Of a DNA stretch of 39,724 bases, positions 1,350 to 38,634 are shown one piece after another. A model generated the notes under the pieces. The model saw only the letters and a list, made by a program, of their open reading frames with translations, was not told where the DNA came from and searched no databases. This DNA is from Candidatus Omnitrophota bacterium (lineage in GTDB: Bacteria > Omnitrophota > Gorgyraeia > Gygaellales > Profunditerraquicolaceae): assembly GCA_028712505.1 (NCBI GenBank), contig JAQTQC010000004.1:1-39724 (forward strand), written 5' to 3'. The position numbers and the translations under genes are program-made. Within the stretch, counting starts at the first letter, position 1; every line of letters begins with the position of its first letter.

Positions 1350-2792
1350 ATGAAAAATGAGTTAGTTTTATTTTTGATTATTTTTATTCCTATTATAGGA
1401 GCGTTAGCCTTGCCTTTCATGGGCAGGATTTCAACTCGCTTAAGAAATGGAGTCTCGTTTACGCTTGTTGTCCTCTCGTTCTTATTTTCCTCCTTTCTTT
1501 TACCCACAGCCTTAAGTAATCAATCCATTGCAATCGTAAAATATTTTCCGCTGGGGTTTAATTTCATTCTTTCCGCTGACAGTTTGGCAGTAGGGATGGC
1601 GATAGTTGTTTCTTTTATAAGCGCGCTGATTATATTGTATTCCTTTGATTATATAAAACACTATGAAAACCAGAATGAATATTATTTTATGGTGGTTTTG
1701 TTTCTTGGGGCGATGATGGGGTTGGTTTTTTCCGGTAACCTGATACTGCTCTATATCTTCTGGGAGATTACTGCTGTAACCAGTTGGCGGCTTATCGGTT
1801 TTTTCAGAAGGAAAGAGCACATCCTGCGCGCGGATAAAGCATTTTTAGTGACAGTTTTTGGATCTCTGCTTATGCTCTTAGGTTTTATCAGGATGTACCA
1901 AGAGACAGGCTCATTTGATTTATCTACCATAAAACAGGTAATTAAGCTGCACCCTATATCTGATTTAACTATAGCCTTGATCTTGGCTGGTATATTTTCT
2001 AAATCCGCCACCCTGCCTTTTCATACCTGGCTTCCGGATGCCGGAGTTGCGCCTTCGCCGGTTACAGCCTTGCTGCATGCGGCGGTTCTGGTCAAAATAG
2101 GCGTATATGTATTTGCCAGGATTTTTATTGCCACTATTCCGCTAGCCGTGTTTTGGCAGACGGCCGTCCCGGTTATTGCCGGGATAAGTGCTTTGATTTG
2201 CGCAGGCGCTGCCTTGGTGGAAACGGATTTAAAAAGGATTATCGCTTATTCTACTATAAGTCAGATTGGTTTCATATTTTTAGGGCTTTCCATAGGTAGT
2301 CCGATAGGTGTAGCCGGCGGGCTTTTGTTTATATTGATGCATGGTTTGGCAAAAGCCGGGCTATTCTTATGCGCAGGAGTGGTGGAACAAAACGCTAAAA
2401 CAAAGGATATCCGGCAGTTAGGTGGGCTTATCCAGACTATGCCTGTTACCGCCTTATCTTTTTTATTCTGCGCCTTTTCAGTAATGAGCATCCCGCCATT
2501 CGGGGGTTTCTTTAGTAAATATATGGTTATCTCCGGTGCGCTGGAAACGGGACATTTGGTTATTGCCGCTGTTTTTTTATTTGGTGCGTTGTTGACTATC
2601 CTGTATCTTTTGCGGGCATTCAATATGGTATTCTTAGGAGAAATAAAGAATTCTTCTGTCAAAGAAGGCTCTTTTATCATGTTGTTATGCGTGGGGTTGT
2701 TTGCAATCCTGTCTTTGGCCGGAGGGATTTTTATTCAATACCCCAACGCAGTAGTACAGGAAATTACCCGGCAGTTATTTAGCTTAAGATGA
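1350..2792 (+). CDS. Group 4 hydrogenase antiporter-like subunit (NuoM/MrpD-like) 1
   Basis: 480 residues, about 14 predicted membrane helices. It belongs to the proton-conducting antiporter family shared by complex I (NuoL/M/N), Mrp antiporters and energy-converting hydrogenases. The ion-path residues are kept: Glu in FWEITAV, Lys in SKSATLPFHTWLPDA, Lys in HAAVLVKIGVY and Lys in HGLAKAGLF. It should be one of three ion-translocating arms of the membrane hydrogenase encoded through 10660. It opens the operon and overlaps the next gene by ATGA. Subunit naming (M versus D) is uncertain because these paralogues are hard to tell apart by eye. Confidence 0.9.
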   Translation: MKNELVLFLIIFIPIIGALALPFMGRISTRLRNGVSFTLVVLSFLFSSFLLPTALSNQSIAIVKYFPLGFNFILSADSLAVGMAIVVSFISALIILYSFDYIKHYENQNEYYFMVVLFLGAMMGLVFSGNLILLYIFWEITAVTSWRLIGFFRRKEHILRADKAFLVTVFGSLLMLLGFIRMYQETGSFDLSTIKQVIKLHPISDLTIALILAGIFSKSATLPFHTWLPDAGVAPSPVTALLHAAVLVKIGVYVFARIFIATIPLAVFWQTAVPVIAGISALICAGAALVETDLKRIIAYSTISQIGFIFLGLSIGSPIGVAGGLLFILMHGLAKAGLFLCAGVVEQNAKTKDIRQLGGLIQTMPVTALSFLFCAFSVMSIPPFGGFFSKYMVISGALETGHLVIAAVFLFGALLTILYLLRAFNMVFLGEIKNSSVKEGSFIMLLCVGLFAILSLAGGIFIQYPNAVVQEITRQLFSLR

Positions 2793-4600
2793 TCGAGGCA
2801 TTTATATTATTGCTTATAATTTTACCTTTATTCGCTGGCGTCCTCAGCCTTATATTGCCCAGGCTTTGGCGGGGAGCTTTTGCTGTTATCTTGAGTTCGG
2901 TCAATTTTTTAATCGCAGTTTATTTGTTCAAAAAAGAACTAACCTTTAGTTTTCCCTGGGCTGGGTTTGGCATAGATTTTTCTTTGCGGCTAAACCATTT
3001 TAGCGGCTTTATTATTTTAGCGGCTTCTTTTTTTGGTCTGCTCATCAGCTTATATGCGTTAAATTTTCTCAAAGGTAAAGACAGCGCTAAGCAGTTCTAT
3101 GCTTATATTTTAATATCAATCTCATTTGTTAATGGCGCGGTGCTGGCGAACAATCTTGTAGTTTTGCTTTTTTTCTGGGAGGCCTTGCTGTTAACTCAGT
3201 ATGGAATGATTGTCATAGGAGGCAGGCTGGCATTTAGAACTGCAACCAAGGCTTTAATCATCTCCGGCGCTTCGGATTTATGTATGATGGCAGGAGTGAT
3301 TTTAACCGGATACCTTGCCAAAACTTTGCTTATAAGTGATATTAGCCTTCCTCTGGATTTACTGGGCAGCCTCGCTTTTATACTTTTGGTAACCGGCGCA
3401 ATTTCAAAAGCCGGATCTGTTCCTTTTCATACCTGGATCCCCGATGCTGCAGAAGCAGCGCCGCTTCCTTTTATGGCATTTTTCCCGGCAGCGATTGAAA
3501 AGCTATTAGGGATATATTTTCTTGCCAGGATTACTTTAGACCTATTTAAGTTGAATACAAATTCCATACTTAGCAGTGTGCTTATGATCATTGGCGCTTT
3601 GACTATTATAATTGCGGTAATGATGGCCTTGATCCAAAAAGATTACAAGAAACTTCTTTCTTATCATGCTATCAGCCAGGTGGGCTATATGGTTTTAGGT
3701 ATAGGCACATGTCTTCCCGCAGGAATAATCGGTGGTATCTTCCATATGATCAATCATGCCTTGTATAAATGCGGTTTATTTCTTACGGGTGGAGCAGTAG
3801 AAAAACAGGCTGGCACTACAGATTTAGCCAAATTGGGGGGTTTAGGTTTAAGTATGCCGATAACCTTTTTTTGTTTCTTGATCACGGCGGCGTCTATATC
3901 CGGGGTTTGGCCGTTTAACGGATTTTTCTCCAAAGAATTAATATATGATGCTGCCTTAGAGAGGGGCAAGATATTCTATCTGGCGGCTATCCTGGGCTCT
4001 TTTCTGACAGCTGCGTCTTTTCTAAAGTTAGGCCACACGGTGTTTTTAGGCAAGGTTAGCCAGAAATACAAGGAAGCCCCGGTCCTTATGCTTATCCCTA
4101 TGGTTATTCTTGCGTTTACCTGTATTATTTTTGGCGTATTTAATCGCTTACCGATAAATAATTTTATTCAACCGATTTTAGGAATCCGGGCAGCAGGGCA
4201 TAATTTCTCCGGAATGCCGGCTAATTTTATGTTGGTAATAGTTACGGTGATTGTTTTATTAGCGGCGTTTCTGCATCATTTTATCGCCGTCAGGATGAAT
4301 GGGGGGGCAATCAGGGCGGCAGAGCATATACATCAGGCTCCGGTACTTTCGACTATTTACCGTTGGGCAGAGAAAAAATACCTTGATCCTTATGAAGTTG
4401 GGATTAAGCTGATTAATAAGCTTGCGAAAATATTCTGGCGTATAGACAGGGGCATAGACTGGTTGTATGGGTCATTGATAGTAAATCTGACTTTTGCGTT
4501 TTCCCGGGTTATCCATAAAATACAGGCAGGATATTATATAATCTATGTCATCTGGTCATTAGTTGGGGCTTTTGCCGTTATGTCATTTGTTCTAAGGTAA
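2789..4600 (+). CDS. Group 4 hydrogenase antiporter-like subunit (NuoL-like) 2
   Basis: 603 residues, longer than its two paralogues. It has the NuoL-type C-terminal extension: an amphipathic stretch (about residues 505-575, rich in charged residues with KKYLDPYEVG) and a last membrane helix. Coupling residues are kept (FWEALLLTQYG; SKAGSVPFHTWIPDA; AAIEKLLGIYFLAR; NHALYKCGLF). The lateral helix is known in complex I to strap the antiporter subunits together. Start ATG 2789 overlaps the previous stop. Role: ion translocation in the hydrogenase membrane arm. Confidence 0.9.
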   Translation: MIEAFILLLIILPLFAGVLSLILPRLWRGAFAVILSSVNFLIAVYLFKKELTFSFPWAGFGIDFSLRLNHFSGFIILAASFFGLLISLYALNFLKGKDSAKQFYAYILISISFVNGAVLANNLVVLLFFWEALLLTQYGMIVIGGRLAFRTATKALIISGASDLCMMAGVILTGYLAKTLLISDISLPLDLLGSLAFILLVTGAISKAGSVPFHTWIPDAAEAAPLPFMAFFPAAIEKLLGIYFLARITLDLFKLNTNSILSSVLMIIGALTIIIAVMMALIQKDYKKLLSYHAISQVGYMVLGIGTCLPAGIIGGIFHMINHALYKCGLFLTGGAVEKQAGTTDLAKLGGLGLSMPITFFCFLITAASISGVWPFNGFFSKELIYDAALERGKIFYLAAILGSFLTAASFLKLGHTVFLGKVSQKYKEAPVLMLIPMVILAFTCIIFGVFNRLPINNFIQPILGIRAAGHNFSGMPANFMLVIVTVIVLLAAFLHHFIAVRMNGGAIRAAEHIHQAPVLSTIYRWAEKKYLDPYEVGIKLINKLAKIFWRIDRGIDWLYGSLIVNLTFAFSRVIHKIQAGYYIIYVIWSLVGAFAVMSFVLR

Positions 4601-4614
4601 AAAGGGAAGGTTTT

Positions 4615-6045
4615 ATGGTCGTATTATTTATTTTAATTCCGTTTGTTTTATTGTTAGTCTTGAATCTGCCTTTTAAATTTCTAAATGCGCGGATTGCCTT
4701 TTGGTTAAGCGTAGTCTTGTTTTCAACTCAGGCGCTATTTGTCTTAATCAATTCCTTGTTTGCCTGGAGCAATTATCCTGCAGTATTAGGTCAGTTTCTG
4801 ATATTTAAATTATGGTTAGACCCGCTGGCTTTCATTATGCTTTTTACTATCGCAATAGTAGTACTTGTTTCGCTTTTAGTAGCCAGGAGTACGATCACTA
4901 CGGAAAAGCGTAGTTTTAATTTCATCAACCTGCTTTTGGTTGCCCTTACCGGTATGAATGCCACGGTGCTGGTTGCAGATATATTTTCCTTATATGTTTT
5001 CGTTGAGATTACTGCCGTAGCGGTATTTGTGCTGATGGCTATAGAGAAGAACAAGTTTGCGATAGAAGGGACCTTTAAATATCTGGTTTTGTCAATGTTT
5101 GCCAGCGTATTTATTTTAACCTCCATCGCCTTTTTCATCCTGGCTTGCGGGGATCTCTCTTTTTCGGAAATCCATAACGCATTTTTAGCAAATTCTAATA
5201 TTATTCTGCTCAATTTTGCCATTGGTCTATTCCTTTGCGGCCTGTTTATTAAATGCGGAGTAGTGCCTTTTCATGGCTGGGTGCCTGATGCCTATTCTGA
5301 AGCTCAATCTGCCGTTTCTGTGCTTTTGGCCGGGATTGTTACTAAAATAACTGGTATATATGTATTAATGCGCCTGTTTAGTTCGGTTTTTGTTTTAAAA
5401 GGGTCTTTTCATAATCTGATTATGTTAATCGGAGTAATCTCTATTGTTTTTGCGGCGTTGGCAGCTTTTAGACAGGATAATATCAAGCGCATGCTTTCGT
5501 ATTCCAGCATAAGCCAGGTAGGTTACATCGTATTGGCAATAGGCTGTGGGACACCTTTGGCAATTCTAGGGGCAATATTGCATTTCTTTAATCATGCAAT
5601 CTTTAAATCCCTGCTTTTTGTCAATGCCGCAGCATTGGAAAAGAAATTCGGTTCCACTGATATGTCAATAATTACCGGTTTAGGCAGTCAATTACCGGTA
5701 ACCAGCGTCACATCTCTCGTAGGCTTGCTTTCTACCGCGGGCATCCCGCCGCTTTCCGGTTTTTGGAGCAAGTTAATTATCATAATCGCACTTTTTAATG
5801 CGCAACAATTCACTTATGGCTGGATTGCTTTGTTAGCCAGCGTTTTGACCTTGGCATATTTTCTTTTTATGGAGCGTAACATATTCCTTATTAAAACAGA
5901 AACGGCACCGGAAGGCAGTGACGGCGTTCCTTTTGGCATAAAGTTCTGTGAAATATTGCTTGCGGCTATTACTATTGGAGTGGGCCTGGGATTTCCATTT
6001 ATTTTAAATAGTCAGATTTTACAATTGAAGGGCCTTTTATATTAA
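4615..6045 (+). CDS. Group 4 hydrogenase antiporter-like subunit (NuoN/MrpD-like) 3
   Basis: 476 residues, the third antiporter-family protein in a row. Coupling residues are present (YVFVEITAVAVF; FIKCGVVPFHGWVPDAYSEA; GIVTKITGIYVLMR; NHAIFKSLLF). The GWVPDAYSEAQSAVS stretch resembles MrpD/MbhH more than NuoM. GGGAAGG (4604-4610) precedes ATG 4615. With three such subunits the complex has the same number of antiporter modules as bacterial complex I, more than Ech-type hydrogenases (one or two). Confidence 0.88.
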   Translation: MVVLFILIPFVLLLVLNLPFKFLNARIAFWLSVVLFSTQALFVLINSLFAWSNYPAVLGQFLIFKLWLDPLAFIMLFTIAIVVLVSLLVARSTITTEKRSFNFINLLLVALTGMNATVLVADIFSLYVFVEITAVAVFVLMAIEKNKFAIEGTFKYLVLSMFASVFILTSIAFFILACGDLSFSEIHNAFLANSNIILLNFAIGLFLCGLFIKCGVVPFHGWVPDAYSEAQSAVSVLLAGIVTKITGIYVLMRLFSSVFVLKGSFHNLIMLIGVISIVFAALAAFRQDNIKRMLSYSSISQVGYIVLAIGCGTPLAILGAILHFFNHAIFKSLLFVNAAALEKKFGSTDMSIITGLGSQLPVTSVTSLVGLLSTAGIPPLSGFWSKLIIIIALFNAQQFTYGWIALLASVLTLAYFLFMERNIFLIKTETAPEGSDGVPFGIKFCEILLAAITIGVGLGFPFILNSQILQLKGLLY

Positions 6046-6046
6046 G

Positions 6047-6532
6047 ATGGCTATCGACTTAATACTATTATCAGCATTGCTTCTATCCGCGATCTGGACG
6101 GTGATGACCATAAGGCTTGTGCACTCTGTTGTGGGCCTGGCATTAACCAGTGCTATACTGGCTGCGATAATTTACCGTCTTGATTCTCCGCTGGCTGCGG
6201 TTTTTGAGCTTTCTGTTTGCTCTGGGCTTATTTCAGTTATTTTTATTACTACAGTCAGTTTTACTCAACGTATCAGCAAGGAAAGATTTATTGTTCGCAG
6301 GAAAGAAAGGTTGTTGAGATTCCTATATCTACCTTTTATCGTTATTATTGCAGGGTTATTGTTAGTCCGTTATTTAAGGATTCCACAATTCAGCCTGCCT
6401 CTATCTGCGCAAGTGACAGATGTACGTTTAGTCCTTTGGAATATGCGGCATTTGGATCTATTAGGGCAGGCGATTATCATAATTGCGGGAGTCTTTGGGG
6501 TGGTCGTCTTTTTCAAGGAGCCGAATAAATGA
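6047..6532 (+). CDS. Membrane subunit resembling a fused MbhD (DUF4040) + MbhE / NuoJ-like
   Basis: 161 residues with about five membrane helices. Residues 20-70 (SPLAAVFELSVCSGLISVIF) match the MbhD/DUF4040 pattern, in which an acidic residue sits in a helix followed by a G-rich turn. The C-terminal part (residues about 125-157, LWNMRHLDLLGQAIIIIAGVFG) resembles the MbhE/MrpA-tail pattern of FR.LDT.GE....A..GV. These parts correspond to the NuoJ position of complex I. The assignment is by pattern and context (directly before the NuoK-like gene, which overlaps it), so it is less secure than its neighbours. Confidence 0.7.
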   Translation: MAIDLILLSALLLSAIWTVMTIRLVHSVVGLALTSAILAAIIYRLDSPLAAVFELSVCSGLISVIFITTVSFTQRISKERFIVRRKERLLRFLYLPFIVIIAGLLLVRYLRIPQFSLPLSAQVTDVRLVLWNMRHLDLLGQAIIIIAGVFGVVVFFKEPNK

Positions 6533-6849
6533 ATCCGGATACTTTCGAGTTATTCAGGTATTTTATTATTTTCATCATACTGTTATTTATTTCCGGGGTT
6601 TATTGTGTTTTAGTCAGTTTTAATCTGGTTCGGGCATTGATCGGAGTGGAGATTTTAATAAAAGCAGTAACCCTATTAATTATCCTGGCCGGCTATATCT
6701 GCGACAGGGTAGCCTTGGCCCAGGCAATCGTACTTACTTTGATTGTTATTGAGATTGTGATTATGGTTGTTGCCGGAGGGGTTGTGTTATGGGCTTTTAA
6801 ATATAATAAGACTATCGACCCCAGACGTTTGAGTAATCTAAGAGGATAA
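6529..6849 (+). CDS. NuoK/MrpC/MbhG-like membrane subunit
   Basis: 106 residues, three membrane helices, the usual NuoK size. Conserved intramembrane acids are visible: Glu in GVEILIKAVTLL (helix 2) and Glu in LIVIEIVIMVV (helix 3), which belong to the ion path in this family. Start ATG 6529 overlaps the previous stop (TGA 6530-6532). It is part of the hydrogenase membrane arm. Confidence 0.85.
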   Translation: MNPDTFELFRYFIIFIILLFISGVYCVLVSFNLVRALIGVEILIKAVTLLIILAGYICDRVALAQAIVLTLIVIEIVIMVVAGGVVLWAFKYNKTIDPRRLSNLRG

Positions 6850-6851
6850 GG

Positions 6852-7187
6852 ATGTTAAATACAATTGTATTTTCACCCCCGGTAGCTTTTATAATCGTGT
6901 TTTTGGTTATATTTATCTTATTTATTCTTTGTTCACGCAACGCATTCCGCAGAAAGGGGCAGTCGAGCGGAGCGAAAAAGGCATATGCCTGCGGAGAGGA
7001 TTTTAAAGGGCATTTTATCCAACCGGATTATAGCCAGTTTTTCCCTTTTGCTTTTTTCTTTACCATATTACATGTAGTTGCCTTGATTGTTGCGACCGTT
7101 CCGGCGGAGACGGTTGAGATATTTGCCATCGCGGTTGTTTATGTAGTCGCAGCAATAATCGGGCTTTTAATCTTACTGAAGAAATAA
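6852..7187 (+). CDS. NuoA-like membrane subunit
   Basis: 111 residues. Helix 1 (about 10-30), a loop with YACGEDF, then DYSQFFPFAFFFTILHV and a second and third helix. This is the NuoA (complex I chain 3) arrangement: a Y.CGE-type loop, a short amphipathic segment with F-rich residues, and the V(A/E)..F pair of helices. It sits between the NuoK-like and NuoB-like genes, where it would bridge the membrane and peripheral arms. It is noteworthy in a hydrogenase operon, because E. coli Hyc/Hyf and Ech do not have a separate NuoA. Confidence 0.75.
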   Translation: MLNTIVFSPPVAFIIVFLVIFILFILCSRNAFRRKGQSSGAKKAYACGEDFKGHFIQPDYSQFFPFAFFFTILHVVALIVATVPAETVEIFAIAVVYVVAAIIGLLILLKK

Positions 7188-7189
7188 CT

Positions 7190-7654
7190 ATGGGTATAAT
7201 CTCGAAAATAATCAACTGGTCAAGACTGAAATCGCCCTGGGTATTGCATTTCAACACCGGCGCTTGCAATGCCTGCGATATAGAAATTATCGCCGCACTT
7301 ACTCCGCGTTATGATCTGGAGCGTTTTGGCGTAGTGCTTAAAGCTACTCCGCGTCATGCGGATGTACTTTTATGCTCCGGTCCGGTAACCAAGCAGATAG
7401 AAAGTCGCCTATTGCGTATATATGAACAGATGTCTGAGCCTAAATTTGTGGTAGCAGTAGGTACTTGTGCCTGTAGTGGAGGAGTTTTTAATGGTTGCTA
7501 TAATGTAGCCGGAGGCATAAATTCGGTTATACCCGTCTCGGCATATATCCCGGGTTGCCCAGCTAGTCCCAAAGCTATAATTGATGGCGTGGTAAAGCTT
7601 TTGCAGAGTTTGGAAGCCAAACCGAAAAGCAAGAGGCCAGGAGGTAAGAAATGA
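7190..7654 (+). CDS. [NiFe] hydrogenase small subunit (NuoB-like)
   Basis: 154 residues. The cysteines that bind the proximal [4Fe-4S] cluster are in place: GACNACDIE (CxxC, about residues 26-29), GTCACSGG (about 88) and IPGCPASP (about 123). Length and spacing fit group 4 hydrogenase small subunits and NuoB. The protein passes electrons between the [NiFe] site of the large subunit and the ferredoxin-like subunit encoded at 10283. It overlaps the next gene by ATGA. Confidence 0.92.
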   Translation: MGIISKIINWSRLKSPWVLHFNTGACNACDIEIIAALTPRYDLERFGVVLKATPRHADVLLCSGPVTKQIESRLLRIYEQMSEPKFVVAVGTCACSGGVFNGCYNVAGGINSVIPVSAYIPGCPASPKAIIDGVVKLLQSLEAKPKSKRPGGKK

Positions 7655-8112
7655 GCGAAGAAAAGGTTAAGCAGGAATTAGAAGATAAATTTTCTTATTT
7701 GAAAGATACGGTGACTATTACAAGAAAGGGGCGTATATTCGTGCAAGTCCCTTTGGATAAATTCAACGAAGTATTTGTTTACGTGGTAAAGCAAATGCGT
7801 TTTTTGGCTCTCTCCGCAATAACCGGGTTGGACAGAGGAGATGGTTTTGAGGTTATCTATCATCTTAATAGAGAAGGCAGGGTGTTGTTGAATTTGAGCG
7901 TCAGGTTGAATAAAGAAAATCCTGAGGTGAATAGTGTTACCGGATATTGCCCTAGTGCGGATATATACGAGAGAGAGCTTGTGGATTTATTTGGGATTAA
8001 AGTAAAGGGGATTGCTCCGGGGCACAGGTATCCTCTTACTGATGATTGGCCGGAGGGAGAGTACCCTTTGCGTAAAGACTGGAAAGGCCATAAGGAGGCG
8101 CAAAATGCATGA
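7651..8112 (+). CDS. NuoC-like hydrogenase subunit (30 kDa family)
   Basis: 153 residues. The C-terminal half has the NuoC/HycE-N-type signature ERELVDLFGI, then GHRYPLTDDWPEGEYPLRKDW. In HycE of E. coli this domain is fused to the large subunit; here it is separate, as in Mbh/Ech-type operons. It overlaps both neighbours (ATG 7651; the downstream start at 8105 lies inside it), so translation is probably coupled. Confidence 0.9.
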   Translation: MSEEKVKQELEDKFSYLKDTVTITRKGRIFVQVPLDKFNEVFVYVVKQMRFLALSAITGLDRGDGFEVIYHLNREGRVLLNLSVRLNKENPEVNSVTGYCPSADIYERELVDLFGIKVKGIAPGHRYPLTDDWPEGEYPLRKDWKGHKEAQNA

Positions 8113-9343
8113 TGTGCATGATTTTGAAGATGTAAAAATTCCGATTGGTCCTCAGCACCCGGCTTTAAAAGAACCGGAGAGTTTTTTGATAAGTTTGCGC
8201 GGAGAGAAGATAACTGCTTCCAGCGTAAGATTGGGTTACAATCACCGGGGAATAGAAAAAGCCTGCGAAGAGAGGACGTATACCCAAGGACTATACCTTA
8301 TTGAGCGGATCTGCGGTATTTGTTCACATTCCCATTCTACTTGTTTTGTGCAGGCGGTAGAGGAGATTGCTGGTATTGAAATAACAGCCCGCGCTAAATA
8401 TCTGCGTACGTTGATCGGCGAGCTGGAGCGTATACATAGCCATCTTTTGTGGTTAGGCGTAGCCGGGCATGAAATTGGTTTTGATACTTTGCTTATGTAT
8501 ACCTGGCGCGACCGTGAAGTAGTGATGGACCTTTTAGCAACACTTACCGGGAATAGAGTAAACTATGGAATTAATACTGTTGGAGGGGTAAGGCGCGATA
8601 TCAGTCATAAACAAAAAGAAGAAGTTTTAAAGGCAATAGATATATTAGAGGAGAGGACTAAATACTATATCGATCTTGCTAAGGGTGAAACTACCTTAAT
8701 TAAACGTTTGCAAGGAGTAGGGGTATTATCTCATGAAGATGCTGAAAAGTTAGATGCGGTTGGTCCTACCGCGCGCGCCTCAGGCATTGAACGGGATGTG
8801 CGCAAAGACGATCCTTATGCGGCTTACGGGGAATTGGATTTTAAGGTAATTAGCGTCAATAGCTGTGATGTCTATGGCCGTACCCTGGTGCGTTTAGGAG
8901 AATTGATGGAATCTTTTAGTCTGGTGCGTCAGGTTATCCGCAAAATTCCTGACGGATCGATTCTAGTAAAATCGGCCCGCAAGGTACCGGCAGGCGAAGC
9001 AGTAAGCCGTTATGAAGCACCCCGGGGGGAGGATCTTCATTATGTGCGTGCTAATGGCACAGAAAAGCCCGACAGGGTAAAAGTAAGGGCGCCCACCTTA
9101 GCGAATATCCAGTCAGTTTCTAAAATGCTTGAAGACAGATACCTGGCGGATATGCCTATAGTAATAGCGGCGATTGATCCGTGTTTTTCCTGCACGGATA
9201 GGTTGGTAGCTGTTCGGGATACAAAGAACAAGGGCAGTAACACCGTGGTTTGGGAGACTATTCGGCTTCAGGGGATCGAGTGGTATAAAAACAAGGGAAT
9301 AGATTTTACCTCTTTAAACGAGAAGCTAACTAAACTATCTTAG
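8105..9343 (+). CDS. [NiFe] hydrogenase large subunit (group 4, NuoD-like)
   Basis: 412 residues from ATG 8105, chosen because AAGGAGG (8092-8098) lies just upstream and the N-terminus then reads VKIPIGPQHPALKEPE as in the family. In-frame sequence continues upstream to 8012 but inside the previous gene. Both CxxC pairs that hold Ni and Fe are present: ERICGICSHSH (about residues 72-75) and DPCFSCTDR (C360, C363), so this is a true [NiFe] hydrogenase rather than complex I or an Ehr protein. By analogy with E. coli HycE, maturation should cut after the Arg of CTDR (R366) and remove a 46-residue tail. The protease gene lies at 10629. Confidence 0.93.
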   Translation: MHDVHDFEDVKIPIGPQHPALKEPESFLISLRGEKITASSVRLGYNHRGIEKACEERTYTQGLYLIERICGICSHSHSTCFVQAVEEIAGIEITARAKYLRTLIGELERIHSHLLWLGVAGHEIGFDTLLMYTWRDREVVMDLLATLTGNRVNYGINTVGGVRRDISHKQKEEVLKAIDILEERTKYYIDLAKGETTLIKRLQGVGVLSHEDAEKLDAVGPTARASGIERDVRKDDPYAAYGELDFKVISVNSCDVYGRTLVRLGELMESFSLVRQVIRKIPDGSILVKSARKVPAGEAVSRYEAPRGEDLHYVRANGTEKPDRVKVRAPTLANIQSVSKMLEDRYLADMPIVIAAIDPCFSCTDRLVAVRDTKNKGSNTVVWETIRLQGIEWYKNKGIDFTSLNEKLTKLS

Positions 9344-9344
9344 C

Positions 9345-10286
9345 ATGCTTAAAGCACTTTTTCATATTTTGATTTTCCCGGGATTGTCATTCCTTTTTGT
9401 GTTCGGGTTTTTTGCCGAATATGTTGACAGGAAGCTTTATGCCCGGTTACAAAATAGAATCGGGCCGCCGTGGTTTCAACCACTGGCTGATTTTATTAAA
9501 TTAATCAGTAAGCAAGAAATAATCCCCGAAGAAGCGGATAATAATGTCTTTAAACTGATGCCGCTACTTGCACTTGCCGCCTCATCCGTAGCTATTCTTT
9601 ATATACCTATATCGGGCGAGCGTTCAGTATTTTCTTTTAATGGGGATGTGATCGTTGTCCTGTATCTTTTGACTATTCCGACTTTTGCTTATTTTCTGGG
9701 TGGCTGGTATTCAAGAAGTGTCTATTCGATGATTGGGGCAGTACGTTCTCTGACCCAATTATTTGCTTATGAAGTCCCCTTGTTCTTATGTATTCTTGCC
9801 TCGGCAATGCTTGCTGATACTTGGTCATTGAGTGGAATAGCGGCATTCTATAATCAGCATATCGGTTATTGGTTTTGTAATATTATCGGATTTGTAGTTG
9901 CTTTGATTTGCCTTTTGGGTAAACTTGAGAAGGTGCCCTTTGATATCCCGGAGGCGGAAACTGAAATCGTAGCAGGGAGTTTTACCGAATACAACGGAAG
10001 ACTGCTGGCGTTTATCCGTATGTCTTTTAACGTTGAAATGGTGGTCGGTGCTTCATTGCTTGCCGCGGTATTCTTGCCATTTGGCCTTAACCTTGCTCCC
10101 GCAGGGGTATTGATATGTTATTTAATCCAGGTTTTGATTATTATCGTGGCAATTTCCTTCTTGCGTACGTTATTTGCGCGCTTGCGCCTGGATCAGATGA
10201 TTAACTTCTGTTGGAAGTACCTTGCGCCTTTAGCATTCTTACAGGTTTTATTTAATCTTACCTTGAAGGTGGTGTTGCCAAGATGA
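9345..10286 (+). CDS. NuoH-like membrane anchor subunit
   Basis: 313 residues, about eight membrane helices. Typical NuoH/HycD features: ERK-like YVDRKLYARLQNRIGPPW near residue 30, and the acidic loop KVPFDIPEAETEIVAG (about residues 195-210) with SFTEYNG behind it. This subunit anchors the peripheral arm and lies at the interface where redox energy is passed to the antiporter chain. It starts one base after the large-subunit stop and overlaps the ferredoxin-like gene. Confidence 0.9.
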   Translation: MLKALFHILIFPGLSFLFVFGFFAEYVDRKLYARLQNRIGPPWFQPLADFIKLISKQEIIPEEADNNVFKLMPLLALAASSVAILYIPISGERSVFSFNGDVIVVLYLLTIPTFAYFLGGWYSRSVYSMIGAVRSLTQLFAYEVPLFLCILASAMLADTWSLSGIAAFYNQHIGYWFCNIIGFVVALICLLGKLEKVPFDIPEAETEIVAGSFTEYNGRLLAFIRMSFNVEMVVGASLLAAVFLPFGLNLAPAGVLICYLIQVLIIIVAISFLRTLFARLRLDQMINFCWKYLAPLAFLQVLFNLTLKVVLPR

Positions 10287-10660
10287 GCAGACCGGGGAAG
10301 ATAACCAGGCTTCTTATACAGTCGTTGTTTAAAAAACCAGCTACGGTAAACTATCCTGCTAAAAGATCGGGTATGCCTGAAGGGTTCCGCGGAAAACTGA
10401 AGTTTAACCCTCAGATGTGCATTGGTTGCAAGATGTGCATGCGCGATTGTCCCTCAGGCGCAATAGAAATCAGGAAAATCGGCGAGAAACAATTTGAGGC
10501 GGAAGTCAATTTGGCTAAATGTATCTACTGCGGCCAATGTGTGGATTCCTGTCTTAAGCACGCTCTTGAAATTACCGCCGAATTTGAACTTGCCAAATTA
10601 GATCCCGCGCAATTAAAGGTTATTCTCAATGTCGTCAATAAAGATAGTCTTGAAGAGTAG
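10283..10660 (+). CDS. NuoI/HycB-type 2[4Fe-4S] ferredoxin subunit
   Basis: 125 residues with two CxxCxxCxxxC motifs: CIGCKMCMRDCP (about residues 46-57) and CIYCGQCVDSC (about 80-90). It would take electrons from soluble ferredoxin and deliver them to the NuoB-like small subunit. ATG 10283 overlaps the NuoH stop; its 3' end overlaps the peptidase gene by 32 nt. It is the last structural gene of the hydrogenase. Confidence 0.92.
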   Translation: MSRPGKITRLLIQSLFKKPATVNYPAKRSGMPEGFRGKLKFNPQMCIGCKMCMRDCPSGAIEIRKIGEKQFEAEVNLAKCIYCGQCVDSCLKHALEITAEFELAKLDPAQLKVILNVVNKDSLEE

Positions 10661-11147
10661 ATTAAAGAATGCCCAAAGGGTTGCCGTGTTAGGAATTGGC
10701 TCTCTTTTAAGGGCTGACGATGCGGCAGGTGTGATTATTGCCAAAGAGCTTAAGGTTCAGATTAAAGATAACAATAAGAAAAACAGGCTGAAGTTTTTTT
10801 TAGGCGAAACTGCCCCTGAAAATTTAACCGGCCAGATAAAAAAGTTTAAACCTACTCATTTGATTATCATTGACGCGGTGGATTTTCATTTAAAACCCGG
10901 GTCTTTAAGGATAGTCAATATTTCTACAGAGGCGGGAGCGTCTTTTTCTACGCACAGAGTCCCAGTCGGGGTCCTCCGGGATTATTTGTATAAATCTCTT
11001 TCTTGTGAAACTATACTTATCGGGATGCAGCCTGGTTCTATGGAATTTTGCGGTTGTCTTTCTCCGGGTGTAGAAGAAGCAATCCAGGCAGCCGGCAATG
11101 AAATCGGGGAAGTCTTGAAGGATTTTGTACTTTCGCCAAGAGTTTAA
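10629..11147 (+). CDS. Hydrogenase maturation endopeptidase (HycI/HyaD family, M52)
   Basis: 172 residues. The N-terminal VLGIGSLLRADDAAGV matches the GxGN.l..DDG.G motif of the family, with the Asp that senses nickel in the precursor. A second Asp is in IIDAVDF (about residue 80) and the His in FSTHRVP (about 106) completes the metal-binding set. It would remove the C-terminal tail of the large subunit at 8105. The Asn of the usual GN is Ser here. The start at ATG 10629 lies within the upstream gene, preceded by AAAGG; the overlap suggests coupled translation. Confidence 0.88.
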   Translation: MSSIKIVLKSRLKNAQRVAVLGIGSLLRADDAAGVIIAKELKVQIKDNNKKNRLKFFLGETAPENLTGQIKKFKPTHLIIIDAVDFHLKPGSLRIVNISTEAGASFSTHRVPVGVLRDYLYKSLSCETILIGMQPGSMEFCGCLSPGVEEAIQAAGNEIGEVLKDFVLSPRV

Positions 11148-11193: not shown

Positions 11194-12492
11194 ATGTGCT
11201 ATACAATACCGGCGATAGTGGAAGATGTTCATAAAGGAAAAGCTACCATTTCTTATTTTGGTGAGCGAAAGGAAGCTATCTGTGAGTTTAGGCAGTTATT
11301 TCCGGGTGATTATGTATATGTGCAGGGTGGGTATGTAGTGGAAAAGATTTCACCGGTTCAGGCGCAGAAGACTCTTAAGGCATGGAAAGATGTTTTCTTC
11401 GAGTTAAGAAAGATTGATGCGGTTTCAGCAGCGCTGGATAGCAACGACATAAGTCCTAATCGTATCCTGCAGGAAATACTTGAGCGTGCGCGTGAAAATA
11501 TTATTCCTTCTAAAGAAGAAGCGCTGTATTTGTTAAACCTCGAAGATGCGTCTAGCCGGCTGTTGGTTCGCCGCAGCGCCAATTATCTAAGACAACGGTA
11601 CCATAATAATTCCTGTTGTGTGCACGGGATCCTTGAGATATCCAATATCTGCATCAGGGATTGCGGTTATTGCGGAATTTCTTCTTCCAGCGGAGCTGTG
11701 CGTTATCGTATGAGTCTTGACGAGATAATCGCGGCGGCAGGGGAGGCGATCAATAAGTTTGGTTTTAAATCATTGGTCCTGCAGTCTGGAGAAGAATGCG
11801 GGTATTCGCTTGATGAGCTGGCGAATATTGTAGTAAGCATCAAGAAAAAATTCCCGGTGCTTATTTTCATCAGTTTCGGCGAGATTGGCATCGATGGGTT
11901 AAAACAGTTGTATGCTGCCGGTAGCCGTGGCCTTTTACTCCGTTTTGAAACTTCCAATCCAGTGCTTTATGAAAAGTTACATCCTGGATGCAATTTGAAT
12001 TCGCGCCTTGATCATTTAAAGGCAGCATATGAGATGGGGTATCTTATTATAACCGGCGGTCTTATCGGGCTTCCTGGATCTAGCAGGGAGGATTTAGTAA
12101 ATGACATCATTTTAGCCTCTTCATTACATGCCGAGATGTTTAGTTTCGGGCCATTTCTGCCGCATCCCTCTACTTTATTAGCAGATTTTCCTGCTCCTGT
12201 TGAACAGGATGTGCTCGGGGTGTTGTCGCTGGCGCGTCTGATGTGCGCGGAAAAGGCAAAAATTCTGGTCACTACTGCGTATGAAACTCTTAGCCCTTCT
12301 GCCCGGCAGAATGGCTTGATATCCGGAGGTAATTCTATTATGGTCAATGTTACTCCTGTAAAATATCGTTCGCTTTATAATATTTATCCTCATCGGGCCC
12401 ATGAAGGAGAAACGCTTGCCCGGCAGGTCAGACAGGCGCTTGTTATGTTGAGATCCCTTGGTCGCGGTCCAACAGATTTAGGAAGTAACTAA
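11194..12492 (+). CDS. hydE: HypC-like domain fused to HydE-type radical SAM maturase
   Basis: 432 residues. Residues 1-78 look like HypC/HupF: M-C2 start (the Cys is essential in HypC), FGERKEAIC, then GDYVYVQGGYVVEKIS and QAQKTL. Residues about 140-432 are HydE: radical SAM motif CIRDCGYC (C153, C157, C160), LQSGEE, RFETSNPVLYEKLHP, GLIGLPG, PHPSTLL and a C-terminal NVTPVKYR. HydE acts in building the H-cluster diiron subsite of [FeFe] hydrogenase, while HypC hands the Fe(CN)2CO unit to [NiFe] hydrogenase. A fusion of the two is odd. The gene sits directly behind the [NiFe] operon, and ATG 11194 follows AGAGGGA. BioB was considered and rejected because of the HydE-specific motifs. Confidence 0.87.
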   Translation: MCYTIPAIVEDVHKGKATISYFGERKEAICEFRQLFPGDYVYVQGGYVVEKISPVQAQKTLKAWKDVFFELRKIDAVSAALDSNDISPNRILQEILERARENIIPSKEEALYLLNLEDASSRLLVRRSANYLRQRYHNNSCCVHGILEISNICIRDCGYCGISSSSGAVRYRMSLDEIIAAAGEAINKFGFKSLVLQSGEECGYSLDELANIVVSIKKKFPVLIFISFGEIGIDGLKQLYAAGSRGLLLRFETSNPVLYEKLHPGCNLNSRLDHLKAAYEMGYLIITGGLIGLPGSSREDLVNDIILASSLHAEMFSFGPFLPHPSTLLADFPAPVEQDVLGVLSLARLMCAEKAKILVTTAYETLSPSARQNGLISGGNSIMVNVTPVKYRSLYNIYPHRAHEGETLARQVRQALVMLRSLGRGPTDLGSN

Positions 12493-27948: not shown

Positions 27949-27955
27949 TATATTG

Positions 27956-28513
27956 ATGAAAACAATAAAAAAAATAACGTTAAAAGAAAATGATGCTTCA
28001 AAGGCCTGCCTGGATAAGGTTGAGCTGGATAGGATTATTTCTTTTTACGCGGGAAAACCGGGCAGGCTCCTGGGAATACTGGAAGATGCCCAAAAATTGA
28101 ATAAACATAAATATCTGGCCCGGGGAGATTTAGAGTATATCTCCCGCAAGGCCAGGGTACCTTTGTCTCGGATATATAATATTATTACTTTTTATGCCTT
28201 CTTTAATCTTAAACCGCAGGGTGAGCATTCAATTGTTGTCTGCAGAGGCACGGCCTGTCATACCCGGGGGTCCAAAATTCTGCTGGATTTTTTAATTAAT
28301 TTATTCGGTTTTAAAGAAGATGACTTCAGCCAGGATGGCAAGTCATTCCTGACTACCAAAGATAATAAATTTACAGTTAAAACTGTAGCCTGTTTTGGCC
28401 AGTGCGCGCTGGCCCCGGTAGTCGAGATCGACGGTAATATTTACAGCCGGATGAACTCGGAGAAATTACGTAAGATTGTAAAAGGTATAAGTACGCTTAG
28501 GGGTAAGAAATGA
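27956..28513 (+). CDS. hydC: Bifurcating-type [FeFe] hydrogenase subunit HydC (NuoE-like), set 1
   Basis: 185 residues from ATG 27956 (TTG 27953 is adjacent). The thioredoxin-like NuoE fold has the four [2Fe-2S] cysteines CRGTACH (about residues 95 and 100) and CFGQC (about 145 and 149), and YNIITFYAFFNL in the helical part. The N-terminus is about 25 residues longer than in the second copy. It starts seven bases after rex and overlaps hydB by ATGA. It should pass electrons between the flavin of HydB and the HydA clusters. Confidence 0.9.
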   Translation: MKTIKKITLKENDASKACLDKVELDRIISFYAGKPGRLLGILEDAQKLNKHKYLARGDLEYISRKARVPLSRIYNIITFYAFFNLKPQGEHSIVVCRGTACHTRGSKILLDFLINLFGFKEDDFSQDGKSFLTTKDNKFTVKTVACFGQCALAPVVEIDGNIYSRMNSEKLRKIVKGISTLRGKK

Positions 28514-31500
28514 TCATCAAAAGCGCTGAAGACTTGAGATTGATTAAAGAAAAAGGATTGGCCAAGCTCTTGCCTAAAGGCGTGCGTATTGCTGTTGGTA
28601 TGGGGACTTGCGGTATCGGTAATGGGGCTGAAGATCTTTTTCAGGCCTTTAAGCTTAACCTGGCTAAAAGAAAAGTTCCGGCATTGCTGACTAAAGTAGG
28701 TTGTTTTGGTTTTTGCGCCCAAGAGCCATTAGTCAATATCTTCTTACCCGGGAAGCCGCTGGTTATCTTAAATCGCGTTTTACCTACAGATGTAAACTCA
28801 ATAATCAGGGAGCTGGCTGGAAATAGCATCGATCCTGATAGGGCTTTATGTAAAATTGAAAACTGGGACCATCTTACAGGTGAGGTTTTTTACGGTAAAG
28901 GGTTTGAGCAGATACCTAATTGGAATAAGATTCCGTTCTTTGAATGGCAGAAAAAGATTGTTCTAAGGGATTGCGGTTTGATTAATCCGGAAGATATAGA
29001 AGAATATATCGCTGTAGGCGGTTACCAGACTCTGTTCAGTGTTTTGCGGGATCTTAAGCCGGAGGCGGTTATTGCGGAGGTAAAGAAATCAAAGCTGCGG
29101 GGCAGGGGAGGGGCAGGTTTTCCTACAGGGATAAAATGGGAATTAATGCGTAAAGAGAATTCCGGGGAGAAATATATTATCTGTAACGCTGACGAAGGCG
29201 ATCCCGGTGCGTATATGAACCGCAATGAGAGCGAAAGCGACCCGCATATGCTTTTAGAGGGAATGATCATCGGTGCTTACGCAATGGGGGCATCGCAGGG
29301 GATTATTTATGTGCGCGCGGAGTATCCTTTAGCAGTAGAGCGGATACGTAAAGCGATTGCCGATGCCCGCGAGTTTGGCTTACTGGGAGATAATATATTC
29401 AATAGCGGTTTTTCTTTCAACCTGCAGTTAGTCGAGGGAGCTGGCGCATTTGTCTGTGGTGAGGAGACGGCTTTGATTTCTTCGCTTGAAGGTAAATCCG
29501 GAAGGCCGCATCCCCGTCCTCCGTTTCCGGCACAAAAAGGATACCTGGGGAAACCCACGAATATTAATAACGTAGAAACCTGGAGCAATATACCGGTCAT
29601 TATCGCAAAAGGCGCAGATTGGTTTGTACGTACCGGAACCCAGAATAGTTCCGGGACTAAAGTTTTCTCCCTTGTGGGGAAGATAAAAAATACCGGATTA
29701 GTGGAATTGCCTTTAGGTTCAACCTTGCAGACTCTGGTGTATAATATCGGCGCAGGTACTGGTACGAATAAAAGGATAAAGGCTGTGCAGAGCGGTGGAC
29801 CTTCCGGAGGATGTATCCCTGCCTCATTGTTTAATACCCCGATTGATTATGAAACTCTGGCTTCATTGGGAGCGATCATGGGTAGCGGAGGCATGGTAGT
29901 TATGGATGATGACAATTGTATGGTTGATGTAGCCCGTTATTTTACGGAGTTTACCACTAGTGAATCCTGCGGTAAATGTACTCCTTGCCGGGAAGGTCTG
30001 ACCCAGAGTTTGAATATCCTGTCCAATATTGCAAAAGGAAAGGCCAGTGAAGATGATCTTGCCGGATTAGAAGATTTGGGGGTAGTGATTAAGGACACCG
30101 CACTTTGCGGATTAGGGCAGACCAGTCCGAATCCCGTTCTTACTACGCTTAAATATTTTAGGCATGAATATGAGGAGCATATCCGGGAGCAGCGTTGTGA
30201 CGCTGGAGTATGTTCCGATCTTTTTGTATCTCCCTGTGAAAATAGCTGCCCATTGCATATGAATATACCGGGATTTCTGGAGCTGTTTAAGGAAAGAAAG
30301 CTGACTGAGGCATTTGATTGTATCATCCGGGATAATCCCCTGCCGTCTTCCAGCGGCAGGATCTGTCACTTTCACTGTAAAATGCGCTGTCGCAGGGAAG
30401 ATATTGATTATCCGGTTTCGCAGGGTGAAATCCATAGGTATATTGCGGATCAGGTATACAAAGGCGGTAAAGATACAAAGATCATTGAGCGCTTAGTCAA
30501 AGAAAGGCTGCCAAAGACCGGCAAGAAGATTTCTGTTATCGGTGCAGGCCCCTGTGGTCTTACCGCGGCTTTTTATCTTAGCCGGCTTGGTCATGATGTG
30601 AGTGTTTATGAAGCTAATCCTGAAGCCGGTGGGGTTTTGCGTTATGGCATTCCCGAATACCGCCTGCCCAAGGCAGTATTAAGAAAAGAGATCGCTTTTG
30701 TGCAGAAGATGGGGGCAAAGATCTTCTGTAATAAGAAGATTGACGCAAAAGATTTAAATAAAATGATCAGAGGATCGGACGCCGTATTTTTAGCAACCGG
30801 GGCGTATAAGAATATGGATTTAGGTATTCCCGGGGAAGGTACAAAAGGCGTGCTATCCGGTACTGAATTTCTGAAGGAAGTGGCGGTTGGCAAAGAACCG
30901 CTTATTGGAAAGAAAGTTTTGGTTATCGGCGCCGGTAATGTCGCGGTGGATGCTGCGCGCACGGCTTTAAGATTTGGCAGCGAGGTGACTATTGTTTATC
31001 GCAGAGAGAAGGCAGATATGCCGGCGAATAAAGATGAGATTAAGGGTGCTGAATCCGAAGGCGTTAAATTTATATTCTTAGCCAGCCCTAAATCTATATT
31101 GAAGGATTCCCGTCTGCTACTGCGAGGGTTAAGCGCGATCAGGATGTGCTTGGGGGAATATGATTCTTCCGGAAGGAAAAAACCGGTAGCTACCGATGAA
31201 GTTTTTGAAATCCCCTGCGATACCATAATCCTGGCGATTGGAGAAAAGGTGGATGCGGAGTTTATCAAAGGTTGCGGTATTGTAATCAACCAGAATGGTA
31301 CGGTTAAAGCCGGAAGACTTGATTTAAAAACCAATCTGGATAAGGTTTATGCCGGAGGGGATTTAGTCATGGGCCCGGCAACCGCAGTAGAGGCAATGTC
31401 TGATGGTAAAAAAGCCGCCAGGGTGATTGATTTGGAGTTAAGCTCAGAAGACAGGTTTCTCAAATTGTCCCGTAATTTTACTTATAAGGCCCAAGTAATC

Positions 31501-31656
31501 TTGGAGCCGAAGGTATCTAAGAGACTGGATGCTGAAAAATTGAAGATAAGCAAACGCAGGAATAATTTCAGGGAAGTTTCTTTGGGGTTATCGTCGAAGC
31601 AGGCCCGCGCCGAGGCGAACAGGTGCTTAAGGTGCGATATCAAAGAAGGAAGATAG
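28510..31656 (+). CDS. hydB: HydB (NuoF-like) fused to a GltD-like FAD/NAD(P) oxidoreductase, set 1
   Basis: 1048 residues. About 1-100: thioredoxin-like ferredoxin domain (GTCGIGNGAED; GCFGFC). About 150-560: NuoF with GRGGAGFPTGIKW (FMN), CNADEGDPGAY, GAGAFVCGEETAL (NADH), ESCGKCTPCREG and CGLGQ (a [4Fe-4S] cluster, about 485-533). From about 560 a GltD/NfnB-type domain: CENSCPLHMN and CHFHCKMRC (Fe-S cysteines), VIGAGPCGLTAA (FAD, about 676), VIGAGNVAVDAA (NAD(P)H, about 805) and GGDLVMGPATAVEA near the end. It replaces the two C-terminal [4Fe-4S] ferredoxin motifs found in the second HydB at 34429. The reading frame is intact. The fusion suggests a second pyridine-nucleotide site, perhaps for NADP(H). 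Confidence 0.92.
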   Translation: MIIKSAEDLRLIKEKGLAKLLPKGVRIAVGMGTCGIGNGAEDLFQAFKLNLAKRKVPALLTKVGCFGFCAQEPLVNIFLPGKPLVILNRVLPTDVNSIIRELAGNSIDPDRALCKIENWDHLTGEVFYGKGFEQIPNWNKIPFFEWQKKIVLRDCGLINPEDIEEYIAVGGYQTLFSVLRDLKPEAVIAEVKKSKLRGRGGAGFPTGIKWELMRKENSGEKYIICNADEGDPGAYMNRNESESDPHMLLEGMIIGAYAMGASQGIIYVRAEYPLAVERIRKAIADAREFGLLGDNIFNSGFSFNLQLVEGAGAFVCGEETALISSLEGKSGRPHPRPPFPAQKGYLGKPTNINNVETWSNIPVIIAKGADWFVRTGTQNSSGTKVFSLVGKIKNTGLVELPLGSTLQTLVYNIGAGTGTNKRIKAVQSGGPSGGCIPASLFNTPIDYETLASLGAIMGSGGMVVMDDDNCMVDVARYFTEFTTSESCGKCTPCREGLTQSLNILSNIAKGKASEDDLAGLEDLGVVIKDTALCGLGQTSPNPVLTTLKYFRHEYEEHIREQRCDAGVCSDLFVSPCENSCPLHMNIPGFLELFKERKLTEAFDCIIRDNPLPSSSGRICHFHCKMRCRREDIDYPVSQGEIHRYIADQVYKGGKDTKIIERLVKERLPKTGKKISVIGAGPCGLTAAFYLSRLGHDVSVYEANPEAGGVLRYGIPEYRLPKAVLRKEIAFVQKMGAKIFCNKKIDAKDLNKMIRGSDAVFLATGAYKNMDLGIPGEGTKGVLSGTEFLKEVAVGKEPLIGKKVLVIGAGNVAVDAARTALRFGSEVTIVYRREKADMPANKDEIKGAESEGVKFIFLASPKSILKDSRLLLRGLSAIRMCLGEYDSSGRKKPVATDEVFEIPCDTIILAIGEKVDAEFIKGCGIVINQNGTVKAGRLDLKTNLDKVYAGGDLVMGPATAVEAMSDGKKAARVIDLELSSEDRFLKLSRNFTYKAQVILEPKVSKRLDAEKLKISKRRNNFREVSLGLSSKQARAEANRCLRCDIKEGR

Positions 31657-33435
31657 ATGTCGGAAGAAAAGATATCTTTAAGAATTAATGATTCGGTCTA
31701 TGAATGTGATGCCGGTATGACTATTTTAGAGGCCTGCGCAAAAGCCGCTATCGATATCCCTACGCTTTGTTATTTGAAAGATATCAACCAGGAAGCTGCT
31801 TGTTCAATCTGTTTGGTCGAGGTAAAGGGGGCTAAGGCCCTTGTGCGTTCTTGTGTTACTCCGGTAAGGAAAGATATGGAGATCTTTACGAATACCCCGC
31901 GCGTAAGAAAAGCCAGAAGGATGAATCTGGAGTTGCTTTTAGCCGGGCATCCTAAAGATTGCCTTGTCTGTGACAGAAATCAATCTTGTGAGTTGAGAAA
32001 ATTAGCTTTTGATATGGGAGTAAGAGATGTCAGGTTCCCCAAGACGACAAAAACAGAGCTGCCTTTAGATACAACTTCCGTATCTTTAACCCGGGATCCC
32101 AACAAATGTATTTTATGCGGTCGCTGCGTTTCGGTTTGTTCTGCTATCCAGAGTGTTAAGGCGATTGATTTTTCCGGCCGCGGAAAATCCAGCAAGATAA
32201 CCACATTCTTTGATTCTGGTTTAGCAAACAGCGTATGCGTTAATTGCGGGCAGTGTCTTTTAGTTTGTCCTACAGGGGCAATTACTGAAAAGAACGCCAC
32301 AGGCGGGGTTTGGGCTGCGTTATCGGATCCGAAGAAGTTTGTGATTGTTGAAGTTGCTCCGGCGGTAAGGGCAGCTATTGGTGAAGAATTCGGTCTGCCT
32401 GCAGGTAGTTTGGTTACGGCAAAGTTAGCTCAAAGTTTACGCAAGCTGGGGTTTGACAAGGTTTTTGATACGCAGTTTTCCGCCGATTTGACGATTATGG
32501 AGGAAGGGTATGAATTAATCGATAGGATTAAGAATAAGGGCTCTCTGCCGTTAATTACCTCCTGTTCTCCGGGATGGATAAAATTCGCTGAGCATTTTTA
32601 CTCTGGAATATTAGAACATATCTCCAGCTGTAAATCTCCCCAGCAGATGTTTGGTGCAATTGCCAAAACTTATTACGCCAGAAAGTTTAATCTTGACCCC
32701 AGGAATATGGTGGTTGTTTCAATCATGCCCTGTACTGCCAAGAAATTTGAAGCTTTACGCCCGGAAATGAAGAGTGCGTTTGACTACTGGAAAGATGAAT
32801 TGAATCTCAAAGAAAGCGAAGCATTTTATGATGTGGATTTTGTTTTGACCACCAGAGAAGCCAGTCGCCTGATTAAAGAGGCAGGGATAAACTTTATAAA
32901 TCTTCCGGGTGAGGATTTTGATGAGCCTTTAGGTATTTCTACGGGAGCAGCGGTAATCTTCGGGGCAACCGGAGGGGTAATGGAGGCTGCCTTAAGAACA
33001 GCTTATGAGGTGCTTTGCGGCAGGCAATTGGAGAAAATCGATTTCTTTGGTTTAAGAGGTCTTGAGGGTATTAAGGTTGCCGAGGTGGATATCGATGGAT
33101 TAAAACTAAAGGTTGCTGTGGCCAGCAGTTTAAGTAAGGCCCGTCTATTATTAGATGAGGTTAAAGAAGGCAAATCGCCCTATGCTTTTATAGAGATTAT
33201 GACTTGTCCGGGGGGATGTTTAGGAGGGGCGGGTCAGCCTATTCCTACGGATAACGAGATCAGGTTAAAGAGGATGGAAGCGATTTATCGCGAGGATAAA
33301 AGCAAATCGATCAGGAAATCGCATGAAAACCCCGCGGTTAGGGAGCTGTACAAGGAATTCTTAGGACAGCCCTTAGGAGAGAAATCGCATCATTTATTGC
33401 ATACGCATTACAAACAAAAAGAAGGAGAATTTTAG
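31657..33435 (+). CDS. hydA: [FeFe] hydrogenase catalytic subunit HydA, set 1
   Basis: 592 residues. In order: [2Fe-2S] domain (AACSICLVEV, RSCVTP), the His-ligated [4Fe-4S] site (HPKDCLVCDRNQSCEL, about 97-112), a 2[4Fe-4S] domain (CILCGRCVSVC; CVNCGQCLLVCP) and the H-domain. The H-cluster ligands are all present: TSCSPGW (C303), MPCTAKK (C359) and MTCPGGCLGGAGQP (C517, C521). The last motif has Ala in place of the usual third Gly of GGGQP. The tail has the HTHYK motif typical of group A3 trimeric enzymes. It makes or uses H2 with electrons from HydB/HydC. One base follows the hydB stop. Confidence 0.95.
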   Translation: MSEEKISLRINDSVYECDAGMTILEACAKAAIDIPTLCYLKDINQEAACSICLVEVKGAKALVRSCVTPVRKDMEIFTNTPRVRKARRMNLELLLAGHPKDCLVCDRNQSCELRKLAFDMGVRDVRFPKTTKTELPLDTTSVSLTRDPNKCILCGRCVSVCSAIQSVKAIDFSGRGKSSKITTFFDSGLANSVCVNCGQCLLVCPTGAITEKNATGGVWAALSDPKKFVIVEVAPAVRAAIGEEFGLPAGSLVTAKLAQSLRKLGFDKVFDTQFSADLTIMEEGYELIDRIKNKGSLPLITSCSPGWIKFAEHFYSGILEHISSCKSPQQMFGAIAKTYYARKFNLDPRNMVVVSIMPCTAKKFEALRPEMKSAFDYWKDELNLKESEAFYDVDFVLTTREASRLIKEAGINFINLPGEDFDEPLGISTGAAVIFGATGGVMEAALRTAYEVLCGRQLEKIDFFGLRGLEGIKVAEVDIDGLKLKVAVASSLSKARLLLDEVKEGKSPYAFIEIMTCPGGCLGGAGQPIPTDNEIRLKRMEAIYREDKSKSIRKSHENPAVRELYKEFLGQPLGEKSHHLLHTHYKQKEGEF

Positions 33436-33446
33436 TAAAATTTTTC

Positions 33447-34054: not shown

Positions 34055-34060
34055 TCTGTT

Positions 34061-34408: not shown

Positions 34409-34428
34409 AAAACAGGAATAATTAATTT

Positions 34429-36171: not shown

Positions 36172-36212
36172 CCCCTTGAAAGGTGCGGTCTCCAGATCGC
36201 GAATGTATAAAT

Positions 36213-38619: not shown

Positions 38620-38634
38620 AGAGATGGGGTGTAT

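Follow-up and report, generated by a model that had tools for sequence, protein, structure and literature searches.

All [NiFe] hydrogenases are held to require HypA-F for their maturation, and where the CO ligand comes from in anaerobes has been described as the field's most pressing open question (PMC12134894). In this pathway Cys2 of HypC bears the iron unit, Fe(CN)2CO, and delivers it to the hydrogenase large subunit (PMC11565642; reviewed in PMC12134894), and a HypC histidine, H51 in E. coli, serves HypD binding (PMC9002611). The pathway for [FeFe] hydrogenases uses HydG, HydE and HydF. From tyrosine HydG builds [Fe(cys)(CN)(CO)2]-; HydE receives this synthon, adenosylates it and reduces it (PMC12752695). 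Free CO and cyanide can also leave HydG (PMC9431212).

The window analysed here, a stretch of 39,724 nucleotides from a Candidatus Omnitrophota genome, contains a gene that joins components of both systems. This gene (11194 to 12492, forward strand; the same strand applies to its domains and to the [NiFe] genes, protease gene and hydG of the window below) has an ATG start and exact ORF limits and encodes a protein of 432 amino acids, which a sequence-only reading had taken to be a HypC-like domain fused to HydE. The fusion is real. Residues 1-79 (11194 to 11430) form a HypC domain, an OB-type barrel with a C-terminal helix. The Pfam profile PF01455 (HupF_HypC) covers residues 1-64 end to end with 41.6 bits against a gathering cut-off of 28.5, phmmer matches residues 1-80 to T. 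kodakarensis HypC (1.4e-6), and when the N-terminal domain is folded separately, Foldseek ranks 1-10 are HypC structures only, 2z1c and 3vyr being the best matches. Residues 94-426 (11473 to 12471) form a HydE-type radical-SAM domain, as seen by profile, phmmer and Foldseek: the Pfam Radical_SAM match over residues 148-303 scores 50.7 bits, and T. maritima HydE is matched by residues 94-426 at 1e-53. An AlphaFold model of the whole fusion, built with 53 homologues, has a pLDDT of 94 and a pTM of 0.92, and its Foldseek comparison with T. maritima HydE gives a TM of 0.92 (by target length), an rmsd of 1.5-1.7 A and 35% identity. In one detail the second domain departs from its earlier description as a full HydE barrel: the window protein reaches 214 bits, under the NCBI HydE equivalog cut-off of 254.6, a value that three relatives straddle at 252.7, 267.4 and 304.5. 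The stricter NCBI HypC subfamily model, TIGR00074, gives the fusion proteins 31-45 against a cut-off of 48. The window protein is a warning, since on it neither NCBI model reaches its cut-off. Pfam finds both domains in 53/53 relatives scanned, with HypC matches at E < 0.001, which rules out an assembly join or a chance artefact.

The HypC domain shares with HypC, HybG and HupF (2z1c, 3vyr) the MC-x-x-IP start, the GDY motif, the fold, the cysteine at position 2 and the adjoining [NiFe] genes; it differs in being fused to an enzyme, in one diagnostic residue and in residing in a genome without HypD. Cys2 (11197 to 11199), which by alignment is the HypC cysteine that carries Fe(CN)2CO (PMC11565642), is invariant among the 53 aligned relatives. 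The Cys2 start noted in the first reading is therefore present; the V-H-x-G-F histidine noted with it is not, since the window protein reads V-Q-G-G-Y. Gln44 (11323 to 11325) aligns with the HypD-contacting histidine (E. coli H51; PMC9002611), and glutamine is found in every fusion at this histidine near position 50 of HypC. A HypC that has lost its HypD partner would be expected to show just such a loss of the contact histidine.

The barrel, when compared with T. maritima HydE (3cix, 7o1o), retains the CxxxCxxC radical-SAM [4Fe-4S] motif (Cys153/157/160; 11650 to 11673), LQSGE, PHP, the C-terminal motifs and the link to HydG, and the fusion barrels as a group keep most HydE-wide residues. Unlike HydE, it has Cys141-Cys142-Val-His144 (11614 to 11625) where the T. 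maritima enzyme has V51-H52-I-R54 (HydE numbering is chain number minus 10, inferred from the tagged PDB chain). The exchange of V51, H52 and R54 for Cys, Cys and His occurs in all fusions, so that Cys-Cys-x-His is invariant; the strand arginine, R54, is Arg in 22/22 canonical HydE proteins and His in all fusions. In addition, D154, G226, P266, G272 and V289 of canonical HydE align with R, S, L, E and S in the fusions. If the reaction has changed, these altered positions are candidates for what determines the change. When the barrels are placed in a tree, one branch with support of 1.0 parts 67 fusion sequences from the 22 canonical HydE sequences.

HypC-HydE is an old family that spans two phyla. 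It is present in 59/384 Omnitrophota genomes and in 6/247 Spirochaetota genomes, the latter including a member of the Brevinematales (G385). A three-sequence profile found the full-length fusion in 42 of the 384 Omnitrophota genomes, and 17 more matched from about residue 123 onward. These 17 do not represent a second HydE-like class without HypC: the same MCYAIPG... HypC start is present behind a linker shorter by about 40 residues, except that one sequence ends at a contig edge first. In one genome (G079, L071:9151-11898), HypC, HydE and HydG occur as one natural polypeptide of 915 amino acids. This genome is 96% complete in two contigs and has no HypD, HypE, HypF or HydF; its fusion gene comes immediately after a group 4 [NiFe] operon, a protease gene and a short HypA. 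No published description of a HypC-HydE fusion or of HydG use in [NiFe] maturation was found in the open-licence subset of papers in PMC.

The gene was said to lie right behind a [NiFe] operon, and so it does. A complete operon for a membrane-bound group 4 [NiFe] hydrogenase occupies positions 1350 to 10660, with the small subunit (PF01058) at 7190 to 7654 and a group 4 Mbh/FHL-like large subunit, which has both CxxC pairs, APRG and PT, at 8099 to 9343. The gene for a HycI-type [NiFe] maturation protease (10629 to 11147; PF01750 56 bits, TIGR00142 106 bits) ends 46 bp upstream of the fusion gene, and ATP synthase genes come downstream of it. Scans for promoters, terminators and repeats found nothing beyond chance. 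Farther along, positions 27953 to 37964 hold two successive NuoE/NuoF/[FeFe]-hydrogenase gene sets; the first NuoF-like protein (28510 to 31656, 1048 amino acids) has an extension that reads like a GltD-type oxidoreductase. The window ends within hydG, of which 38629 to 39724 is the 5' part; no other HydG was found in the genome, and it is the proposed source of CO and cyanide. The gene is interrupted by a 100-base N scaffold gap, the start of which is the right end of the window, and in-frame 21-bp repeats (MTAEKAG) flank the N run (L008:1878-2073; contig C31, about 39.68-39.87 kb). hydE and hydF follow beyond the window.

The host genome (G000) comprises 1.40 Mb in 42 contigs, is 92.7% complete and belongs to the same genus as G135. 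Two checks proposed with the first reading could be run on it. There is no separate hypC, the fusion's own domain being the one HypC; a second hydE does exist, a canonical one 28 kb downstream of the fusion between hydG and hydF. There is also one HypA, whose gene directly precedes an apparent glycine-cleavage cluster with lipoate genes (L164, contig C33:48000-60500); the H-protein pathway feeds H-cluster ligand synthesis. No HypD was found, and no HypE or HypF over cut-off. A HypE-like match of 92 bits is an AIRS protein encoded behind a NifS-type gene, and was rejected as HypE because it is missing the terminal cysteine.

Across the relatives the association with [NiFe] genes persists. A large subunit is encoded in 48 of the 67 fusion loci, and in 38/47 of those with at least 5 kb of upstream sequence; a protease accompanies 41 of the 67, a HypA-type gene lies beside the fusion in 30, and HydG is at most 1 kb away in 31. 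Both group 3 hydrogenases (with FNR and a small subunit) and group 4 hydrogenases are found at these loci, and all neighbouring large subunits that were read have both CxxC pairs (the four Cys ligands) and PRG and PT/PS round the iron ligands. HypA is over cut-off in 48/65 fusion genomes. The Spirochaetota fusion genomes carry hypA, which in several neighbours a gene for a GTPase of the hypB type as well as a group 4 hydrogenase operon. Retention of HypA and protease indicates that nickel insertion and proteolysis stay, and that only the Fe(CN)2CO step has been exchanged.

The distribution of the other Hyp proteins fits such an exchange. HypD is found in 0/59 Omnitrophota fusion genomes, and 139 others of the 384 have HypD over cut-off, nearly all with E < 1e-100. 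An overlap of 21 genomes would be expected by chance, and 0 is observed (hypergeometric P 1.7e-13, with kinship ignored and mostly draft genomes). In the Spirochaetota, HypD is present in 64/247 genomes and in 0/6 with the fusion, which alone is not significant (P 0.16). Fusion-only and HypD-only genomes occur side by side in nine families, none of which contains a genome with both, so the exchange of fusion and HypD probably happened more than once. HypF is over cut-off in 0/61 and HypE in 0/60 fusion genomes tested, counts that include one of the six Spirochaetota fusion genomes; in each search four control genomes pass the cut-off. With HypD, HypE and HypF all missing, nothing remains of the known route to cyanide and the scaffold. 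The Brevinematales genome holds a protein of 525 amino acids (L045:1063-2640) with a HypF-like C-terminal carbamoyltransferase region that scores 128 bits, far under cut-off, and that is not accompanied by acylphosphatase or zinc-finger parts.

HydG, on the other hand, is present in 57/59 Omnitrophota fusion genomes versus 24/139 HypD genomes (enrichment in fusion versus all other genomes, Fisher 2e-22, kinship ignored). HydF is present in 20 of the 59 (21/60 searched), and 37 Omnitrophota genomes have the fusion and HydG without HydF. In these 37, HydG cannot serve the standard [FeFe] pathway. One Spirochaetota fusion genome has HydF without a neighbouring HydG. The HydG beside short-linker fusions retains the C-terminal CxxC...C motif and forms its own clade in the HydG tree. 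The remaining neighbouring HydGs are interspersed among those from hydEFG operons, and the tree thus does not support one dedicated lineage of HydG.

The best reading of these genes and genomes reverses the direction first suggested, in that a HydE-type enzyme would have been recruited to [NiFe] maturation. Quite probably, HypC-HydE and HydG together replace HypC, HypD, HypE and HypF, making and delivering Fe(CN)2CO. HydG would begin by cleaving tyrosine to CO, cyanide and an Fe-CO/CN-cysteine synthon, as it is known to do. The HydE-type barrel would then take the synthon, and radical-SAM chemistry would free the iron from cysteine; here the ligands would have to be adjusted from two CO and one CN to one CO and two CN, giving Fe(CN)2CO, with the family-specific Cys-Cys-x-His of the barrel as a candidate holding site. 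From there the iron unit would move to Cys2 of HypC; the tethered domain would dock on the large-subunit precursor and insert the unit as free HypC does. HypA would subsequently add nickel, and the HycI-type protease would trim the large subunit. Tethering of HypC would spare a free Fe-CO/CN intermediate. The earlier proposal that the protein either carries such an intermediate or binds HypD is consequently divided: carrying is likely, and HypD binding is excluded, since HypD is found in 0/65 fusion genomes.

Such a route would share with the HypCDEF pathway its presumed end product and client, the large-subunit precursor, and would keep HypA and the protease; it differs in that HypD, HypE, HypF and the carbamoyl-phosphate route are absent and HydG is present instead. 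With the HydG-HydE-HydF pathway it would share the passage of the HydG synthon to a HydE-type enzyme, although no HydF is needed, delivery would presumably run from HypC Cys2 to the [NiFe] large subunit, and dithiomethylamine plays no part. The pathway as a whole, in its enzymes and probably in its substrate, is no form of HypCDEF, even though each domain belongs to a known superfamily. The fusion module therefore points to what appears to be an undescribed third way of building the [NiFe] metal site. If this is correct, tyrosine is the origin of both CO and cyanide in these [NiFe] enzymes, two maturation pathways thought to be separate turn out to be connected, and [NiFe] hydrogenase production from a compact set of genes becomes testable. 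The module also serves as a warning that genomes without hypDEF can still make [NiFe] enzymes.

Points against the proposed pathway are the two fusion genomes in which no HydG was found, the Spirochaetota genome in which HydF has no HydG beside it, the scaffold gap in the one hydG of the window genome, and the ligand ratio: the known HydG product carries two CO to one cyanide, [NiFe] sites the reverse. The [NiFe] enzymes of these lineages might instead keep Fe(CO)2(CN) or another tyrosine-derived non-standard ligand set, in which case the textbook NiFe(CN)2CO active site would not be universal. This seems unlikely, as the conserved PRG/PT residues would argue for the standard set over Fe(CO)2(CN). 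About equally improbable is that the fusion replaces HypD only as scaffold and carrier, with CO and cyanide coming not from HydG but from unrecognised enzymes such as AIRS-type proteins or HypF-like carbamoyltransferases. No HydG was found in two fusion genomes, G029 and G285, the first of which is 96% complete and also without HydF and HypD, and potential sources could be sought in the 92-bit AIRS protein of the window genome and the HypF-like C-terminal protein of the Brevinematales genome. However, HydG accompanies nearly all Omnitrophota fusions, is often adjacent and is once fused in frame; the AIRS protein lacks the C-terminal Cys and sits behind its NifS-type gene; and the HypF-like matches elsewhere resolve into separate acylphosphatase, YrdC and TsaD-type pieces.

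It is less probable still that the usual Hyp enzymes are too divergent to be recognised or lie in assembly gaps, leaving the fusion an accessory role in repair or large-subunit modification. Nearly all of the genomes are indeed drafts, the window genome among them, but the HypD, HypE and HypF profiles each fail in about 60 genomes and yet detect the four controls, HypD is readily found in the same phylum, and HypA passes its cut-off in most of the same fusion genomes. The least probable reading, close to that of the original note, makes the fusion an H-cluster maturase for [FeFe] hydrogenase with HypC as adaptor or regulator; the HydE fold and identity and the two [FeFe] hydrogenases with hydG, hydE and hydF downstream of the fusion gene would fit, but the presence of a canonical HydE in a separate HydG-HydE-HydF set, the 39/59 fusion genomes without HydF (which already largely refute it), the linkage to [NiFe] operons and an active-site strand that differs where canonical HydE is invariant or nearly so all speak against it.

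Two further features were seen among the genes that accompany the fusion. At ten loci (L054, L080-L084, L086-L088 and L092), group 4 large subunits end straight after the second CxxC (DPCISCAER). The operons of these loci yielded no protease gene, consistent with there being no C-terminal peptide to remove. Often the gene beside the fusion encodes a short HypA of about 80 amino acids (L060:8844-9086, L071:8907-9149, L076:10368-10610 and others). This protein matches HypA positions 1-70 only, and its zinc-finger part is replaced by a conserved (L/V)xSFD end.
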